Below the pieces are notes generated by a model. The model was given only the letters and a program-made list of their open reading frames with translations, had not been told where the DNA came from and did not search any database. Both the position numbers and the translations under genes were made by a program. This document shows positions 3,459 through 33,644 of a DNA stretch of 64,000 bases, piece by piece (the stretch's first letter is position 1; each line of letters begins with the position of its first letter). The DNA is taken from contig NZ_LMSO01000009.1 of NCBI RefSeq assembly GCF_001428435.1, positions 5,237 through 69,236 of the forward strand, written 5' to 3'. The stretch is from Arthrobacter sp. Soil782 (GTDB lineage: Bacteria; Actinomycetota; Actinomycetes; Actinomycetales; Micrococcaceae).

Positions 3459-4919
<1,461 letters not shown>

Positions 4920-17117: not shown

Positions 17118-17609
17118 ATGCATCGCCGCGACCGCCTGCGCTCGGTACTCAACTGGATGAACGGATCTACGCTGCTCGGCCTGGCCGCCGCGAAGCTGGT
17201 GGGCTGCGAGCTCCGCTCCGCTTCCCGCGGCCTCATCTTCGCGCACCGCTACTCCCCTGGGCTACCGAAGGCGTCTGCGTTCACCGTGGGAAACGTTGTG
17301 CTGTTCCGTGCGGGACCGGAAGTGGTGGCCCTCAGACCGCAGCTCGTCGAACATGAAGCACGCCACTGCACGCAGTACGCATTCTGCCTCGGTCTGCCGT
17401 TCCTGCCGGCCTACTTCCTTGCCGCGGGGGTGTCCTGGCTCCTCACTGGTGATCCGGCGTCGCGCAATGTCTTCGAACGCGGGGCCGGTCTCCAGGAGGG
17501 CGGCTACGTGGAGCGCCCGCTGCGCGCCGCGCTGACCCGGCGTGTCAGTGCTCCGCGCCGGCTGCGATCCTCAGATCCGCTCCGGCGTCGGCACTCGTCC
17601 GGGCAATAA
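17118..17609 (+). CDS. Unrecognised small protein with an HExxH motif and one membrane segment
   Basis: I do not recognise a characterised family. The 163-residue protein has HEARH at residues 79-83, the HExxH zinc-peptidase pattern, followed at once by a hydrophobic stretch (about 88-109) and the well-ordered GDPASRNVFERGAGL. Its C-terminus is Arg-rich. The Glu in NVFERG could be a third metal ligand, as in gluzincins, but this is inference. Start at ATG 17118 is supported by the leaderless promoter; a longer frame from 16992 has low-quality sequence. Its last 65 bases overlap the convergent pcp gene. Confidence 0.7.
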   Translation: MHRRDRLRSVLNWMNGSTLLGLAAAKLVGCELRSASRGLIFAHRYSPGLPKASAFTVGNVVLFRAGPEVVALRPQLVEHEARHCTQYAFCLGLPFLPAYFLAAGVSWLLTGDPASRNVFERGAGLQEGGYVERPLRAALTRRVSAPRRLRSSDPLRRRHSSGQ

Positions 17610-18186
17610 CAACCAGCGCGCGACCCATCTCCGCGATCGGCATCCCGGATGCGCCGTGAGCCTGGGCCTGCTCGGTCGAGAACGGCACATGGATGAAGCC
17701 GCCGCGCGGCGCACTGTCACCGCGGGCCAGTAGATCCATGAGCCCGTAGAAGACGTGGTTACAGACATACGTGCCGGCCGTCTGGGACACCGCCGCGGGC
17801 AGCCCGGCCTCCACCAGCGACCGCAGGCTCCGCTTGAGCGGAAGAGTGCTGAAGTAAGCCGCTGGCCCGCCGGCGCGCACGGCATCGTCCACCGGCTGGT
17901 TGCCCGCATTATCCGGAATCCGGGCATCATCGACATTGATCGCAATCCGCTCGAGGGAGATTTCCGACCGGCCTCCCGCCTGCCCCACGCACAGCACCAG
18001 CCGCGGCTGGTGGACGCGAACGGCATCAGTCAGCACATCGATGCTCGCGCCGAAGACACAGGGCAACCGAACCGCAACCGCGGCCTCGCCTTCGTCCGCC
18101 AGGATGGCTGCGGCCTGCTGGGCCGCCTCCCAGGAGGGATTGACGGTTTCGCCGCCGAAGGGCTCAAAGCCGGTGAGCAGGATCAT
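17545..18186 (-). CDS. pcp: Pyroglutamyl-peptidase I
   Basis: A 213-residue cysteine peptidase that removes N-terminal pyroglutamate. The catalytic triad is visible: Glu79 in ISLERIAIN, Cys142 in TYVCNHVFYGL and His166 in GFIHVPFS. The N-terminus ILLTGFEPFGGETVNPS is diagnostic. Cytosolic, single gene, with its 3' end overlapping the convergent HExxH gene. Confidence 0.95.
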   Translation of the reverse strand: MILLTGFEPFGGETVNPSWEAAQQAAAILADEGEAAVAVRLPCVFGASIDVLTDAVRVHQPRLVLCVGQAGGRSEISLERIAINVDDARIPDNAGNQPVDDAVRAGGPAAYFSTLPLKRSLRSLVEAGLPAAVSQTAGTYVCNHVFYGLMDLLARGDSAPRGGFIHVPFSTEQAQAHGASGMPIAEMGRALVVIARTSADAGADLRIAAGAEH

Positions 18187-18225: not shown

Positions 18226-18237
18226 GAACGTGTGTTC
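18226..18237 (+). promoter_or_regulatory. LexA (SOS) box before the radical SAM gene
   Basis: GAACGTGTGTTC matches the actinobacterial core GAAC-N4-GTTC at all eight fixed positions. It ends ten bases before the ATG at 18248, so bound LexA would block transcription initiation directly. The flanks are G and T rather than the extended TCGAAC..GTTCGA. Confidence 0.7.
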
Positions 18238-18247
18238 TAATAAAAGC

Positions 18248-19306
18248 ATGCGATGGGATGCGCAAAAGATGACGACGACGGTGGCCGCCGCCGGAGAGCC
18301 GGAACCGCTGGTGCCGCTCGCCGGGCTCGTGCGGTCCGTTAGAACCCCCGAGTTCGCGGGCATCACCTTCCACGAGGTGCTTGCCAAATCGGCGCTGAAC
18401 CGCGTCCCGGCAAGTTCGGGAATGCCCTTCTCGTGGACTGTCAACCCCTACCGTGGGTGTTCGCATGCGTGCGTTTACTGCTTCGCGCGCAAGACCCACA
18501 GCTACCTCAACCTGGACACAGGTCTTGACTTCGATTCGGAAGTCGTGGTCAAGACCAACGTCGCCGAGGTCCTCCGGCGCGAGGTAGCCAAACCCTCCTG
18601 GAACTGCGAACACGTGGCGATGGGCACCAACACCGATCCCTACCAGCGGGCCGAAGGACGGTACCGGTTGATGCCGGGCATCGTCCGTGCGCTCGCAGAC
18701 AGCGGTACACCGTTTTCCATTCTCACCAAGGGGACGCTGCTCAGCCGGGACCTTCCGCTACTCAAGCAAGCCGGCACCCGGGTCAGCCTCGGCATGGGAA
18801 TCTCGCTTGCGGTGCTCGATCCCGAGCTTGCCCACACGGTGGAACCGGGAACTCCCACCCCGCGCGCTCGCCTTGACCTGATCACCCGATTGCGGGATGC
18901 GGGTCTGCCCTGCGGCGTCATGGCCATGCCTATCCTGCCGTGGCTGACCGACAGCGATGAAGCCCTGGACGCCTTGTTCGCAGCCCTTGCTGCGGCAGGC
19001 GCCACGGGTGTGTCCGCCGGAGCACTGCACCTGCGTCCGGGAGCCCGTGAATGGTACATGGAATGGCTGGCCAGAAAGCATCCCGCTCTGGTCGGACGCT
19101 ACCGGCGGCTCTATGGCGGAGGCACTTATGCCTCCGGTGAATACCGCACCTGGCTCTCGAAACGCGTGCAGGTGCACCGGCGTCGTCATGGGTTGGCTGC
19201 CGGGGCACGCTTCTTTCGGGAGGAAGCGGGAGCAGGTGGGCACGCGCCGTCGTCGTCGGCATCGCCCGGGCGGGAGGTGTCAGCAGACGAGCCCACACTC
19301 TTCTGA
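18248..19306 (+). CDS. Rv2578c-family radical SAM protein, probably SOS-controlled
   Basis: A 352-residue radical SAM protein. The cluster-binding CX3CX2C is CSHACVYC (Cys71, 75, 78), after the family-typical SWTVNPYRGCSHACVYCFAR. It belongs to the group distantly related to spore photoproduct lyase (Rv2578c-like); the true substrate is not established. I prefer ATG 18248 over GTG 18230, because the GTG lies inside the LexA box. In Mycobacterium tuberculosis Rv2578c is, to my recollection, one of the DNA-damage-induced LexA targets; the intact box here suggests the same control. A DNA or RNA lesion repair role is inference. Confidence 0.85.
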   Translation: MRWDAQKMTTTVAAAGEPEPLVPLAGLVRSVRTPEFAGITFHEVLAKSALNRVPASSGMPFSWTVNPYRGCSHACVYCFARKTHSYLNLDTGLDFDSEVVVKTNVAEVLRREVAKPSWNCEHVAMGTNTDPYQRAEGRYRLMPGIVRALADSGTPFSILTKGTLLSRDLPLLKQAGTRVSLGMGISLAVLDPELAHTVEPGTPTPRARLDLITRLRDAGLPCGVMAMPILPWLTDSDEALDALFAALAAAGATGVSAGALHLRPGAREWYMEWLARKHPALVGRYRRLYGGGTYASGEYRTWLSKRVQVHRRRHGLAAGARFFREEAGAGGHAPSSSASPGREVSADEPTLF

Positions 19307-19328: not shown

Positions 19329-19778
19329 CTAAGTGAGATCTTCGACCGGAACCACAGTCTTGAGCAGAGCATCGACAATGGGACGGTCCGCAGGGATCCA
19401 CGGAAGATCCCGGAGCTCGCCGGTATCCCTGAGACTGACCCAGCGGAGTTCGTCGTGGTCCTGCAGTGCGGCCGGTATGCCGGCGGTGATGACCGCCAGC
19501 CACACCCGCATTCCTGCTGAGGCATTCAGCGGCCAGCCGTCGGGATCAGGGCCGACGAGTTCAGCCCCGACCTGCACGTCCACGCCCAACTCTTCGCGCA
19601 CTTCACGCTGGACCGCCTCCAAGTCATCTTCGTCCGGCTCAACCTTGCCGCCGGGGAACTCCCACTGCCCGGCGAACTGCTCCGGAGCGCTTCTGCGCGC
19701 TGCGAGCAGTTTGGACGGTGCAGTGAGCGAATCAACAATGGCGGCGCCGACAACTTGTGTGCGCTGAGTATCGGTCAT
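19329..19778 (-). CDS. NUDIX hydrolase, MutT-like
   Basis: A 149-residue protein with a complete Nudix box (GGKVEPDEDDLEAVQREVREELGV, residues about 44-66) and the MutT-like FAGQWEFPGGK lead-in. MutT-type enzymes hydrolyse oxidised or non-canonical nucleoside triphosphates; 8-oxo-dGTP is plausible but not provable here. It ends 22 bases from the convergent radical SAM gene, with no hairpin between. Confidence 0.85.
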   Translation of the reverse strand: MTDTQRTQVVGAAIVDSLTAPSKLLAARRSAPEQFAGQWEFPGGKVEPDEDDLEAVQREVREELGVDVQVGAELVGPDPDGWPLNASAGMRVWLAVITAGIPAALQDHDELRWVSLRDTGELRDLPWIPADRPIVDALLKTVVPVEDLT

Positions 19779-19808: not shown

Positions 19809-21482
19809 TTAGAAGATGGCGTTGATTCCGTTCCAGCCTGAGCCGAGGGGACTGCGCGAAAGGAAGCCGGACCTGCCGTTGCCCGGGTACAGCCAGAGTG
19901 CACCGCTCGAATCACGTGCGGCGATGTCAGCAATTCGGTCACCGTTGAGGTCACCCGTTCCGATGATCGCGGTCATCGAGTTCCAGCCATGCCCGGCACG
20001 GACCCGTGGCAACCATCCGCCCGCACCGTTACCCGGGTAGAGCCAAAGGATGCCCGCGGCATCGCGTGCGAGGACGTCGCTGGTCCGGTCGCCGCTGAAA
20101 TCGCCCGGCGCGATGATCGCGGTTATCGAGTTCCATCCACTTCCCACGAGGACGCGCGGCAGCCAACCACCGGAACCATTCCCCCTATACAGCCACAACG
20201 CACCCGTGGCCCGTTCGCGTGCAAGCAGGTCCACCCGCTGATCGCCGTCGAAATCCCCAGGTGCAGTGATGCTGCTCATTCCATTCCAGCCATGGCCCAC
20301 CTGTACACGCGGCAACCAGCCGCCGGTGCCGTTCCCCCTGTAGAGCCACAGCACCCCGGTAGCTGCTTCGCGACCGATCACATCTGCGGGGCCGTCGCCG
20401 TTGAAGTCGCCGAGTGTCTCCAGCGCGTTGAAGATTCCCCAGCCATTGCCGATCTGGATTCCGGAGTTCAAACGCCCGGCACCGGTTCCCGCATACAGTC
20501 TCAGCTCGCCGGTCGCGCCGACGCGGGCCAGAATGTCATTACGCCAGTCCCCGTTGAACTCGGCGGTGGAGCCGGTCAGTGTAGAGGCCGGGATGGGCAG
20601 CGCAGTGAAGTTATACGGTTCGCACGTGCGGTCATAGTCACGGACATCGTCATACCACTGGGAAATGTAGACACGGCCGGCGGAGAAGCTGGGTGGAAAG
20701 CACCTGTCGAGTGCTTCGGTCGGGTAATCCAGCCTGCCTGCCGTAGCCCAGACAGGTACGCCCGTCAACCGCCATTGGCCAACGATTTCCTGCCAACCGG
20801 CGGTGTAGGAGTAGAAACCATAGGCGAATCCAGCGTCACGCAATCCGCGCATGAGCCCTTCGACGACGTATCTGTTGTCCAACCGCTGGGCGGCGGTTGC
20901 AGCCGGCCAGGGTTGGGCAGGGCGCGGTTCAACATCGATCCACACCACCGGCGGACGGAATCCGATCCGAGTGAGGCTCTGAACGGCGAAGCGGGCCTCC
21001 GAATAGCCCACGTTGGAAAGCCGCCCGGCGTGTGTTGTGGACGACCACGGCCCCTGCCCGCCGTAGGTGGTGAGCTGGGCCGCAGTCGGGTAGGTGGCCA
21101 TGGCGTAGCCGTGGGCCGGCTTGGCGTTGGTGCGCGCCCAGGCTACCTGGTCTGCGAGGCACGGGTTCTCGGTGAAGGCAAGCCCGCGGGTCAGGCCGAT
21201 GATGACAAACTGGGATGCCGGCGGCGGAAGAGGCAGCCCGAAGCCGCCCTGCGCCGTCGAACACTGTGGCCAGGAAACGTCATGACCGAAAAGGGGCGCC
21301 GCGTGAGCCGCGGGAACGGTAGCTCCCAGCATGCCCACAATGAGGCTGAACGTCAGAAGGCAGGTGGTCATCAGCCGGTGGACAGCCGAAGGCGGCGCAG
21401 GCGACCCGTAGTCAGATGATCTCCGGAACGAATACTGAGACGTTCCGGGAGAAATTGCTGGTTCAGGGGATGATCCATCCAT
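19809..21482 (-). CDS. Secreted glycoside-hydrolase-like protein with five FG-GAP/VCBS repeats
   Basis: Predicted 557 residues. A signal peptide lies at about 36-64 (LMTTCLLTFSLIVGMLGATVPAAHAAP) behind an unusually long N-region. Next is a TIM-barrel-like domain of the DUF1906/GH25-like type, starting at PLFGHDVSWPQC, with acidic residues in VVWIDVEP; this suggests a cell-wall or polysaccharide-active fold. From about residue 310 there are five repeats of 50-51 residues with GDFxGDxxxDxxAR, the Asp-rich calcium loops of FG-GAP beta propellers. I chose ATG 21482 (GGAG upstream); TTG 21509 would add nine residues, and ATG 21371 would give a conventional signal peptide. Substrate unknown. Confidence 0.75.
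   Translation of the reverse strand: MDGSSPEPAISPGTSQYSFRRSSDYGSPAPPSAVHRLMTTCLLTFSLIVGMLGATVPAAHAAPLFGHDVSWPQCSTAQGGFGLPLPPPASQFVIIGLTRGLAFTENPCLADQVAWARTNAKPAHGYAMATYPTAAQLTTYGGQGPWSSTTHAGRLSNVGYSEARFAVQSLTRIGFRPPVVWIDVEPRPAQPWPAATAAQRLDNRYVVEGLMRGLRDAGFAYGFYSYTAGWQEIVGQWRLTGVPVWATAGRLDYPTEALDRCFPPSFSAGRVYISQWYDDVRDYDRTCEPYNFTALPIPASTLTGSTAEFNGDWRNDILARVGATGELRLYAGTGAGRLNSGIQIGNGWGIFNALETLGDFNGDGPADVIGREAATGVLWLYRGNGTGGWLPRVQVGHGWNGMSSITAPGDFDGDQRVDLLARERATGALWLYRGNGSGGWLPRVLVGSGWNSITAIIAPGDFSGDRTSDVLARDAAGILWLYPGNGAGGWLPRVRAGHGWNSMTAIIGTGDLNGDRIADIAARDSSGALWLYPGNGRSGFLSRSPLGSGWNGINAIF
19812..20560 (-). repeat. Five in-frame 150-153 bp FG-GAP coding repeats
   Basis: The block encoding GDF.GD..DVLAR...LWLY.GNG.GGWLPRV..G.GWN recurs with a period of 150-153 bases. 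The second, third and fourth copies are closest to each other, the first and last more diverged. This suggests expansion by recombination within one gene. Confidence 0.8.
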
Positions 21483-21664
21483 GGCTCCGCGCTCCTCGTG
21501 CCGGTCCAATTTTAGAGCCGTTTGCCGTACTTTTCACCGCCCGGTACGGGATCTTTTTGGCATCGATCCAATCTCGGACCCGTAAAGTGGAAGGTGAAAG
21601 AAGTCCCTGCTCAACGATGCGCGGCCACATAACCGGCGCCGCTTAGGCGCTTCCCGTCGTCGAA

Positions 21665-32115: not shown

Positions 32116-32232
32116 GAGAGTTTAAGGCCGCCCCATCCGCCACGAAGAATTCCGCTGAAGCCGGGCGAACTGTTACGAGCCAACCTGTGTCGAGTCAGCG
32201 CGCCTACCGCTGTGCGGAAGCAGATCCGCTCC

Positions 32233-32622
32233 TTATGGATTTCCAACCGGAATATGAAGCGACTGCCCGGCCTGCACGGTCGACGAGCCTAGAACATTCA
32301 GTTCGACGATTTCCTCAACGACGGCTCGCGGATCACGTTCCGGCGCGTACTCGGCAGCAAGAGCCCAGAGTGTCTCGCCCGACGCAACACTGACCCGGAC
32401 AGTGTCCGTGAGGTCACCGCCGGCTGTCGCTGCCTGCGCCTGGGAGGTGAAGAACGAAGCAACCACCAGCAGTACGGCAACAAGCAATGCGACCGGAATT
32501 GCCACCAGAACCACCCAGCCGCGACGGGTGAGATGAAGGCGCGGCGCCGCAGCCGGCCCGTTATTCTCACGGCCCTCTGGGTGAAGTACGGAAGCTGATC
32601 CTGCGATATGGAGCGTAGACAT
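32233..32622 (-). CDS. LysM membrane protein divergent from lexA (YneA/ChiZ-like SOS division inhibitor candidate)
   Basis: Predicted 129 residues: a ~38-residue cytoplasmic N-terminus, one membrane helix (WVVLVAIPVALLVAVLLVVASFF), then an extracellular LysM domain (VRVSVASGETLWALAAEYAPERDP...LNVLGSSTVQAGQSLHIP). YneA of Bacillus and Rv2719c/ChiZ of mycobacteria are LysM proteins made in the SOS response that delay division, and both lie divergent from lexA. Position, architecture and a LexA-like box in its promoter all fit. ATG 32622 has AAAGGTGG eight bases upstream; an earlier start at 32691 crosses the box. Confidence 0.8.
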   Translation of the reverse strand: MSTLHIAGSASVLHPEGRENNGPAAAPRLHLTRRGWVVLVAIPVALLVAVLLVVASFFTSQAQAATAGGDLTDTVRVSVASGETLWALAAEYAPERDPRAVVEEIVELNVLGSSTVQAGQSLHIPVGNP

Positions 32623-32666
32623 GGCGTCCACCTTTCTCGTTGTGTGGATCTCCCACAGCTTTGTTC

Positions 32667-32678
32667 GAAGCTGTGTTC
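32667..32678 (-). promoter_or_regulatory. LexA-like box for the LysM gene
   Basis: On the minus strand GAACACAGCTTC, which matches GAAC-N4-GTTC at seven of eight fixed positions. It lies 45 bases upstream of the LysM ATG and so in its leader or promoter. Confidence 0.5.
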
Positions 32679-32695
32679 TATTCCTCTGCACTTAT

Positions 32696-32717
32696 TATTA
32701 GCACTTGTAAACTAATA
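32696..32717. promoter_or_regulatory. Inverted repeat in the AT-rich lexA intergenic region
   Basis: TATTAG and CTAATA form a perfect 6-bp inverted repeat with a ten-base spacer in the one clearly A/T-rich stretch here. It lies between the two SOS-like boxes. It may be part of the two back-to-back promoters or a site for another regulator. Confidence 0.3.
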
Positions 32718-32731
32718 TTGTCGAGACTCAC

Positions 32732-32747
32732 TCGAACAGATGTTTGA
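32732..32747 (+). promoter_or_regulatory. LexA box for lexA autoregulation
   Basis: TCGAACAGATGTTTGA is a 16-bp palindrome close to the actinobacterial consensus TCGAAC-N4-GTTCGA, with one core mismatch (GTTT). It lies about 130 bases before the chosen lexA start. Confidence 0.7.
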
Positions 32748-32876
32748 AAAGACGTCCCGCCTCCCCTAGCGTTGCTGGCAAGGGTGACGGTCCGGCTGCT
32801 TCACAAACCAGCTCATCACCCGCCACTGACAAAAATGGTTGGCGAGCCGGCAGTCCGGGTCCGGCCGGAGGAAGGG

Positions 32877-33644
32877 ATGCATCTCGTGGCAGATCTCAGT
32901 GCGGCAAAGGACATGGCAGAGGTGCCTTCGCCCGATGCGAAGCGCGGACGCGGAAGGCCGCGCGGCAGGGCCATGCCAAAGGGAATGACAGCACGTCAGA
33001 CAAAAATTCTCGAGACAATTCAGCGCAGCGTAGCTGCGCACGGCTACCCGCCCTCAATGCGCGAGATCGGTGACACCGTAGGGCTTGCGAGTCTGTCCAG
33101 CGTCACGCACCAGCTTTCACAGCTGGAACGCATGGGTTACATCCGCCGCGATCCCAAGCGCCCGCGAGCGATGGAAATCCTGCTTCCTCTCACGCTCGGT
33201 GACAGCACACCACGTGCGCTGCCCTCCTCCGCCGAAAGAGAGGAACCTGCGCGGGCATCGTCGGCCGTCGACGCGGCAATGGTCCCGCTGGTCGGACGGA
33301 TTGCAGCCGGAGGTCCTATTCTGGCGGACCAGGTTGTTGAGGATGTCATGCCACTGCCCCGGCAGCTCGTCGGGCACGGCGATCTGTTCATGTTGCGTGT
33401 TTCAGGTGACTCCATGATTGATGCAGCGATCTGCGACGGAGACTGGGTAGTGGTCCGCCAGCAGAGCACAGCCGAGAACGGGGATGTGGTGGCAGCACTC
33501 CTCGATGATGAGGCCACAGTGAAGACCTTCCGGCAGCGTGACGGTCACACCTGGCTTCTGCCGCAGAACACCAATTACGAGCCGATACTCGGTGACCACG
33601 CCACCATCATGGGCAAAGTTGTCTCGGTGATGCGTGCGCTCTGA
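32877..33644 (+). CDS. lexA: LexA repressor
   Basis: Predicted 255 residues. The winged HTH is [47 protein letters not shown]. The self-cleavage site is Ala144-Gly145 in GRIAAGGP; the catalytic dyad is Ser179 (SGDSMID) and Lys216 (ATVKTF). It represses DNA-damage genes until RecA filaments trigger cleavage. I chose ATG 32877 (GGAGGAAGGG directly upstream); frames open further up to 32772 add a tail without homology. A basic stretch [15 protein letters not shown] precedes the HTH. Confidence 0.96.

Follow-up and report, generated by a model that had tools for sequence, protein, structure and literature searches.

The locus described here raises the question of whether a radical S-adenosylmethionine (SAM) gene that starts directly behind a LexA box belongs to the SOS response and, if it does, where in the cell its product would work. 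The gene lies in a 64,000-nucleotide stretch of Arthrobacter sp. Soil782 contig NZ_LMSO01000009.1 (hereafter the window), and we think it rather likely that it encodes an SOS-induced enzyme whose substrate is a DNA lesion at the replication clamp. The argument is carried by a LexA box that is kept in register across orthologues, and by a C-terminal tail that in most relatives resembles a clamp-binding motif. The C-terminal motif is absent from an earlier sequence-only reading of this DNA and we judge it more novel than the box; we hold with moderate confidence that what is new is the clamp-like tail, together with its occurrence alongside three types of LexA box.

The LexA box and its promoter

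The sequence-only reading had placed GAACGTGTGTTC at 18226-18237, ten bases before the ATG and with the eight fixed bases exact, and the sequence confirms this: 8/8 fixed bases of GAAC-N4-GTTC are present, and the ATG at 18248 follows ten bases past the end of the box. The flanks of GAACGTGTGTTC are GG...TA, a mismatch to the outer tC...Ga of the Streptomyces venezuelae LexA consensus (tCGAAC-N4-GNNCGa, as given in an excerpt of PMC9380542). There are three perfect boxes in the window against 0.97 expected, a number reached in six of 100 shuffles, and 86 genome-wide compared with 58 for the reversed pattern. The box count by itself is weak evidence, near chance, and the matter is decided by conservation.

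Orthologues were sampled at two depths. The family sample consists of 120 Micrococcaceae-family genomes, of which 74 have the gene and 70 loci were read (G029, G016, G012 and G042 were left out). The phylum sample draws on 140 genomes with a match, from which 30 loci were taken (28 after removal of two duplicates), together with 40 further Actinomycetota picked to spread over families. The earlier suggestion that the box should be kept in orthologues within 60 bases of the start is borne out in both. At least seven of the eight fixed bases are present in the last 60 bases of 67 of the 70 family loci, compared with 4/70 and 0/70 for upstream and coding controls of equal length, and in 27 of the 28 other Actinomycetia loci (both controls 0/28). 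The best-matching 12-mer within the 100 bases before the start of each of the 70 family loci agrees at 8/8 fixed positions in 22, 7/8 in 45 and 6/8 in three, and its first base falls at -21 to -23 in 68 of them; mean pairwise identity in the family is 0.53 in the box region versus 0.28 in the flank. Streptomyces-like loci have the box farther up (mostly near -44), ahead of a Shine-Dalgarno-like leader, and a perfect box lies upstream in 26 of the 40 further Actinomycetota loci.

The called start at 18248 is supported because a Met-Arg-Trp start is found at the aligned N-terminus in all 98 orthologues examined. We note that Met-Arg-Trp is kept in 98/98 although a variable linker comes next, and the N-terminus may serve a separate function. 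When the family loci are lined up on their ATG, TCGAAT or TCTAAT continues from the right half of the box, for the most part six or seven bases ahead of the start. A promoter scan finds a -10-like hexamer in 67 of 70 family loci and the complete pair of hexamers in 49 (5 and 0, respectively, when the scan is moved 60 bases upstream). The -10 words and the box have bases in common, so the two signals are not independent. A Shine-Dalgarno-like word was seen in only two of the 70, and no -35 could be recognised on inspection of the window copy. These arrangements suggest that the transcript is leaderless and that LexA would cover the -10.

Could the box nonetheless be a chance match, with the gene outside SOS control? 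The near-chance box count in the window, the imperfect outer flanks and the unrecognisable -35 in this copy would all fit such an explanation, but in-register conservation across the family and beyond makes it extremely improbable. Judged from the aligned sequences, the position of the box and its conservation across relatives are no chance event.

The C-terminal tail and the replication clamp

The alignment shows a core that reaches to about residue 320, a linker of variable length, and last residues that are conserved again. The bacterial clamp-binding motif at a C-terminus is QL(S/D)LF or QLxLF, according to excerpts of a review and an experimental paper (PMC9690074, PMC4549789). Among the 98 actinobacterial proteins, 66 have Gln at position -5 and 92 have a hydrophobic pair at the end or no more than two residues from it. 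We scored the motif as Q[LM]x[LMF] or Qxx[LM][FLI] in the last 16 residues, and included a set related to Pseudomonas aeruginosa PA0069, which comprises the best 80 of at least 595 genome-contig matches to a mixed alignment led by an Aeromonas protein; most are from Pseudomonadota, with classes assigned by title. The rule is satisfied by 80/80 of these PA0069-type proteins, by 24 of the 28 from other Actinomycetia and by 44 of the 70 from the Micrococcaceae family; on the last 12 residues it is satisfied by 31 of the 40 from further Actinomycetota. Other open reading frames of at least 150 residues in the same loci satisfy it in 3/322 and 0/165 cases. All of these motif counts come from related sequences, and Fisher tests on them overstate independence.

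The tail has also been found in relatives on Bacillota plasmids, where L249 ends in QLGF, L250 in QLSFF and L252 in QQSLFD. There is no motif at the ends of L251, L254 or L255 (annotated ends) or L253, and L256 has no plausible frame. None of the eight Bacillota plasmid loci has a GAACN4GTTC box at 7/8 or better (starts were guessed for three), and the tail motif is therefore not limited to SOS-boxed members. Since the tail occurs in some Clostridia relatives without the box, clamp docking, if real, may be older than SOS control. One of the eight Bacillota plasmid loci, L254 (L254:1338-4612, a Staphylococcus saprophyticus plasmid), encodes a shorter relative of the radical SAM family with neighbours annotated as a 2OG-Fe(II) oxygenase, a DNA glycosylase, an Ada metal-binding protein and a methylated-DNA methyltransferase, company that hints at alkylation repair.

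The PA0069-type loci have LexA boxes of their own local types, with sequence matches within 250 bases upstream of the protein match in 57 of the 80, and within 150 bases in 45. By class, the box lies within 250 bases in 25 of 27 alphaproteobacterial loci (GTTCN7GTTC), 22 of 35 gamma, 8 of 12 beta and 2 of 6 unclassified. The same half-sites reversed were found in 0/80 loci, and other spacings within the 150-base stretch gave two matches in all. Plasmid copies, for which 21 of 39 matching records were taken in, have GTTCN7GTTC in six of seven alpha loci and CTGTATATATAAACAG in Aeromonas. All three proteins scored against the PA0069 family model NF033668 pass its cut-off (the Aeromonas plasmid copy and two genome loci). 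One Nitrosomonadales locus (L135) has an actinobacterial-type box, GAACGTTCGTTC, 51 bases upstream of position 2862, where the match begins. Among neighbours of the PA0069-type genes are an RNase HII-like gene in 10/80 loci and a CcrM-type DNA methyltransferase-like gene in 7/80 (the clusters of L174 and L166, with one sequence read per cluster). Viral contigs gave 14 pattern matches, none of which is a relative of the protein.

The reading that we prefer, an SOS-induced enzyme acting on a lesion at the clamp, would work as follows. LexA would sit on an operator overlapping the -10, with the transcript starting at or beside the ATG; DNA damage would activate RecA, LexA would be cleaved and the enzyme made, as the conserved sequence suggests. 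The spore-photoproduct-lyase-like radical SAM core would bind a 4Fe-4S cluster and SAM, and the 5'-deoxyadenosyl radical would be used on a DNA lesion. The flexible C-terminal tail would dock the enzyme on the beta sliding clamp at stalled forks, a step that is weaker for this Glu-bearing copy. A broader proposal, which we advance tentatively and rate just short of even, is that Rv2578c and PA0069 form one SOS-induced, clamp-docked class that removes or rewrites a replication-blocking lesion by radical chemistry, across Actinomycetota and Pseudomonadota and under three LexA codes. We found no paper among open-licence PMC texts that links such radical SAM proteins, Rv2578c or PA0069, to the sliding clamp or to a clamp-binding motif. 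The tail motif offers a direct and cheap test of the enzyme's working place (DnaN), the two families between them provide laboratory hosts for a search for the lesion, and if the proposal is true, the SOS response of bacteria would include a branch of radical chemistry delivered by the clamp.

Several observations weigh against this picture. The Gln rule fails in 26 of the 70 family proteins, and the window copy itself ends in EPTLF, with Glu in place of Gln. Its nearest genus relative (80% identical) also has EPTLF; Gln is retained in the four remaining genus members (QTSLF, QASLF twice and QAPLF). All three Y-family polymerase frames of this genome (487, 364 and 588 residues, stop to stop) lack the motif by the same rule, so that there is no positive control for it in this genome. 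Some Clostridia relatives carry the tail without the GAACN4GTTC box, and 14 of the 40 further Actinomycetota loci have no perfect box, including the 11 of lowest identity (L231-L241). An excerpt of PMC12924846 describes a Streptomyces ambofaciens strain in which the family gene, the attachment site of a Streptomyces phage, is inactivated by the phage, and its authors call a repair link speculative. Likewise, Rv2578c is dispensable in a Mycobacterium tuberculosis outbreak strain, since it is disrupted there by a deletion (PMC3031603, in excerpt).

Some of the same evidence bears on a different explanation, in which an SOS-induced radical SAM enzyme acts on a non-DNA substrate (protein, tRNA or nucleotide) and the tail binds some other partner. 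Radical SAM folds are common to many chemistries, the Gln is missing in 26 of the 70 family proteins, and the commonest neighbour clusters in the 70 family and 80 PA0069-type loci contain no repair operon (one member per cluster read). Beside this last point stands a direct search that identified a homologue of the MutT-like Nudix gene, possibly a nucleotide-pool enzyme, as a conserved neighbour in 59 of the 70 family loci. However, the published clamp consensus fits 80/80 PA0069-type proteins (the best 80 of at least 595), in groups with different LexA box types, and a non-DNA substrate seems to us unlikely.

The protein and its surroundings

The protein has the CX3CX2C motif named in the sequence-only reading, as C71-X3-C75-X2-C78, and the motif is invariant in 34 aligned Rv2578c proteins. 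That reading had also described a poorly understood family distantly related to spore photoproduct lyase. A correction is due here, since the family already has a name, Rv2578c (NF038135), and the match to it spans positions 1-316 of 317; to the PA0069 model NF033668 it scores 220.1 bits, below the cut-off of 360. The kinship with the lyase stands by predicted fold and is weak by sequence, and TIGR04070 (spore photoproduct lyase) is not among the NCBIfam matches of the protein at E 0.001.

The hydrogen donor of spore photoproduct lyase is a conserved cysteine, C140/C141, and C140 mutants of the lyase are on record. A candidate counterpart, C120, lies 42 residues after C78, near the lyase spacing, and was matched to the lyase by this spacing only, not by residue-level structure alignment; it was rejected, being present in 1/34 Rv2578c proteins and 35/76 of an alignment that also contains PA0069-type proteins. 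Without a conserved candidate for the donor cysteine, the chemistry probably differs from that of the lyase. An explanation in which LexA control is real and the enzyme is a true lyase-type enzyme, directly reversing ultraviolet (UV) thymine lesions, has in its favour a modelled fold closest to the lyase by a clear margin and, near the cluster and EPGT motifs, a profile match that is weak (E 0.021). The scarcity of C120 at lyase-like spacing and the lack of a TIGR04070 match at E 0.001 speak against it, and we regard it as distinctly unlikely.

In six family genomes (L102-L105, G012 and G042) the match to the gene is split in two. In five of these, residues 1 or 2 to 83 or 84 are followed by a second match from residues 72-77 on, a pattern expected from an intein inserted at the cluster motif, which makes these intein candidates; the NCBIfam intein form is NF038136.

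The coordinates of the gene, its signals and nearby features are collected in Table 1.

Table 1. Features in and around the radical SAM gene (positions in the window)
Feature	Position	Strand	Basis
Pyroglutamyl-peptidase I, divergent neighbour	17545..18186	-	Homologue in 26/70 family loci
LexA (SOS) box GAACGTGTGTTC	18226..18237	+	Sequence; -21 to -23 register in 68/70 family orthologues
-10-like TCTAAT	18236..18241	+	Overlaps right half of box; ends 6 nt before ATG; sequence and family pattern
Rv2578c-family radical SAM protein, 352 amino acids	18248..19306	+	NF038135 524.8 bits (cut-off 430); PF04055 59.2 bits (cut-off 29.5)
N-terminal Met-Arg-Trp	18248..18256	+	34/34 aligned; 98/98 orthologues
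CX3CX2C cluster motif, residues 71-78	18458..18481	+	34/34 and 76/76 aligned
C-terminal tail, residues 326-352	19223..19303	+	Residues 326-349 with predicted local distance difference test (pLDDT) < 50
C-terminal pentapeptide EPTLF	19289..19303	+	Counterpart of clamp-binding-like QPTLF/QLTLL/QLSLF in relatives
Nudix hydrolase, MutT-like, convergent neighbour	19329..19778	-	Below NCBIfam cut-offs; homologue in 59/70 family loci
SOS-like box GAAGCTGTGTTC (7/8) upstream of lexA	32667..32678		Sequence
SOS-like box GAACAGATGTTT (7/8) upstream of lexA	32734..32745		Sequence
lexA	32886..33644	+	TIGR00498 226.9 bits (cut-off 110.95); same window

In the interval 32215-33644, lexA and a divergent small gene (with a LysM-like end, by eye) share the region that holds both 7/8 boxes. 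A protein with repeated segments in its C-terminal half (FG-GAP/VCBS-like, by eye) is encoded at 19809-21509.

Elsewhere in the same genome, a frame leading towards an ImuB-like polymerase (IMS domain) has the perfect box TTCGAACGCGTGTTCGAT at its start, and an SRAP peptidase gene lies on the other side of the box (L257:1149-4339, box 3556-3567). An ImuB-like gene behind an SOS box would suit an explanation in which the radical SAM enzyme is part of the ImuA'-ImuB-DnaE2 mutagenic translesion machinery at the clamp, as would the finding that ImuB is matched at E 1e-50 in 22 of the 120 family genomes, every one of which belongs to the 74 with the radical SAM gene. The genomes are related, however, so that this association is not independent evidence, and the radical SAM gene does not depend on the ImuB machinery, since in 52 of its 74 host genomes ImuB is unmatched at that threshold. 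Membership in that machinery is, to our mind, quite improbable, at a level slightly below that of lyase-type reversal.

Comparison with known systems

We take it that the listed LexA regulons of M. tuberculosis and P. aeruginosa include Rv2578c and PA0069, respectively; no paper joining PA0069 with LexA was found among open-licence PMC texts. That COG1533 SplB proteins are under SOS control in several species has already been published: an excerpt of PMC8565304 states it, and its reference 57, cited for SplB, is a study of P. aeruginosa. SOS control of SplB (COG1533) is not new, then, and the regulatory part of our analysis extends known facts. For these SplB-like radical SAM proteins, whose SOS control is published, no demonstrated function was found in the open-licence PMC literature.

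A LexA-controlled radical SAM gene is also known from another actinomycete, S. venezuelae, in which vnz_31145 is bound by LexA and shows a 19.97-fold RNA change on mitomycin C; its product is described as akin to enzymes that repair UV thymine cross-links (PMC9380542, in excerpt). The box listed for vnz_31145 was sought before ATGCG in 392 Streptomyces genomes (one strand arrangement, gap 30-60), and was found in seven and never before an Rv2578c-family start. Five of the seven matches encode one identical peptide (MRRRPWMN...) and none (0/7) continues as Met-Arg-Trp. The box of the sampled Rv2578c orthologues differs from that of vnz_31145, which is only a candidate orthologue.

Spore photoproduct lyase (PDB 4fhc and 4fhf) is the closest known fold by a clear margin, and the window protein is predicted to be lyase-like in its radical SAM core, at 13% identity. 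It differs in that the candidate donor cysteine is not conserved in Rv2578c proteins and TIGR04070 is unmatched at E 0.001. With the PA0069 family (NF033668) the core is homologous, and relatives there have local-type SOS boxes and a clamp-like C-terminus; PA0069-type proteins have in addition an N-terminal RGA...DDGW segment and an insertion near FGxRM, both of which are missing in the window protein. The Rv2578c family shares with the window copy a score above the cut-off, the same box and, in relatives, a like promoter layout. The window copy ends in EPTLF and not in a Gln form, and nothing excludes its membership of the family.
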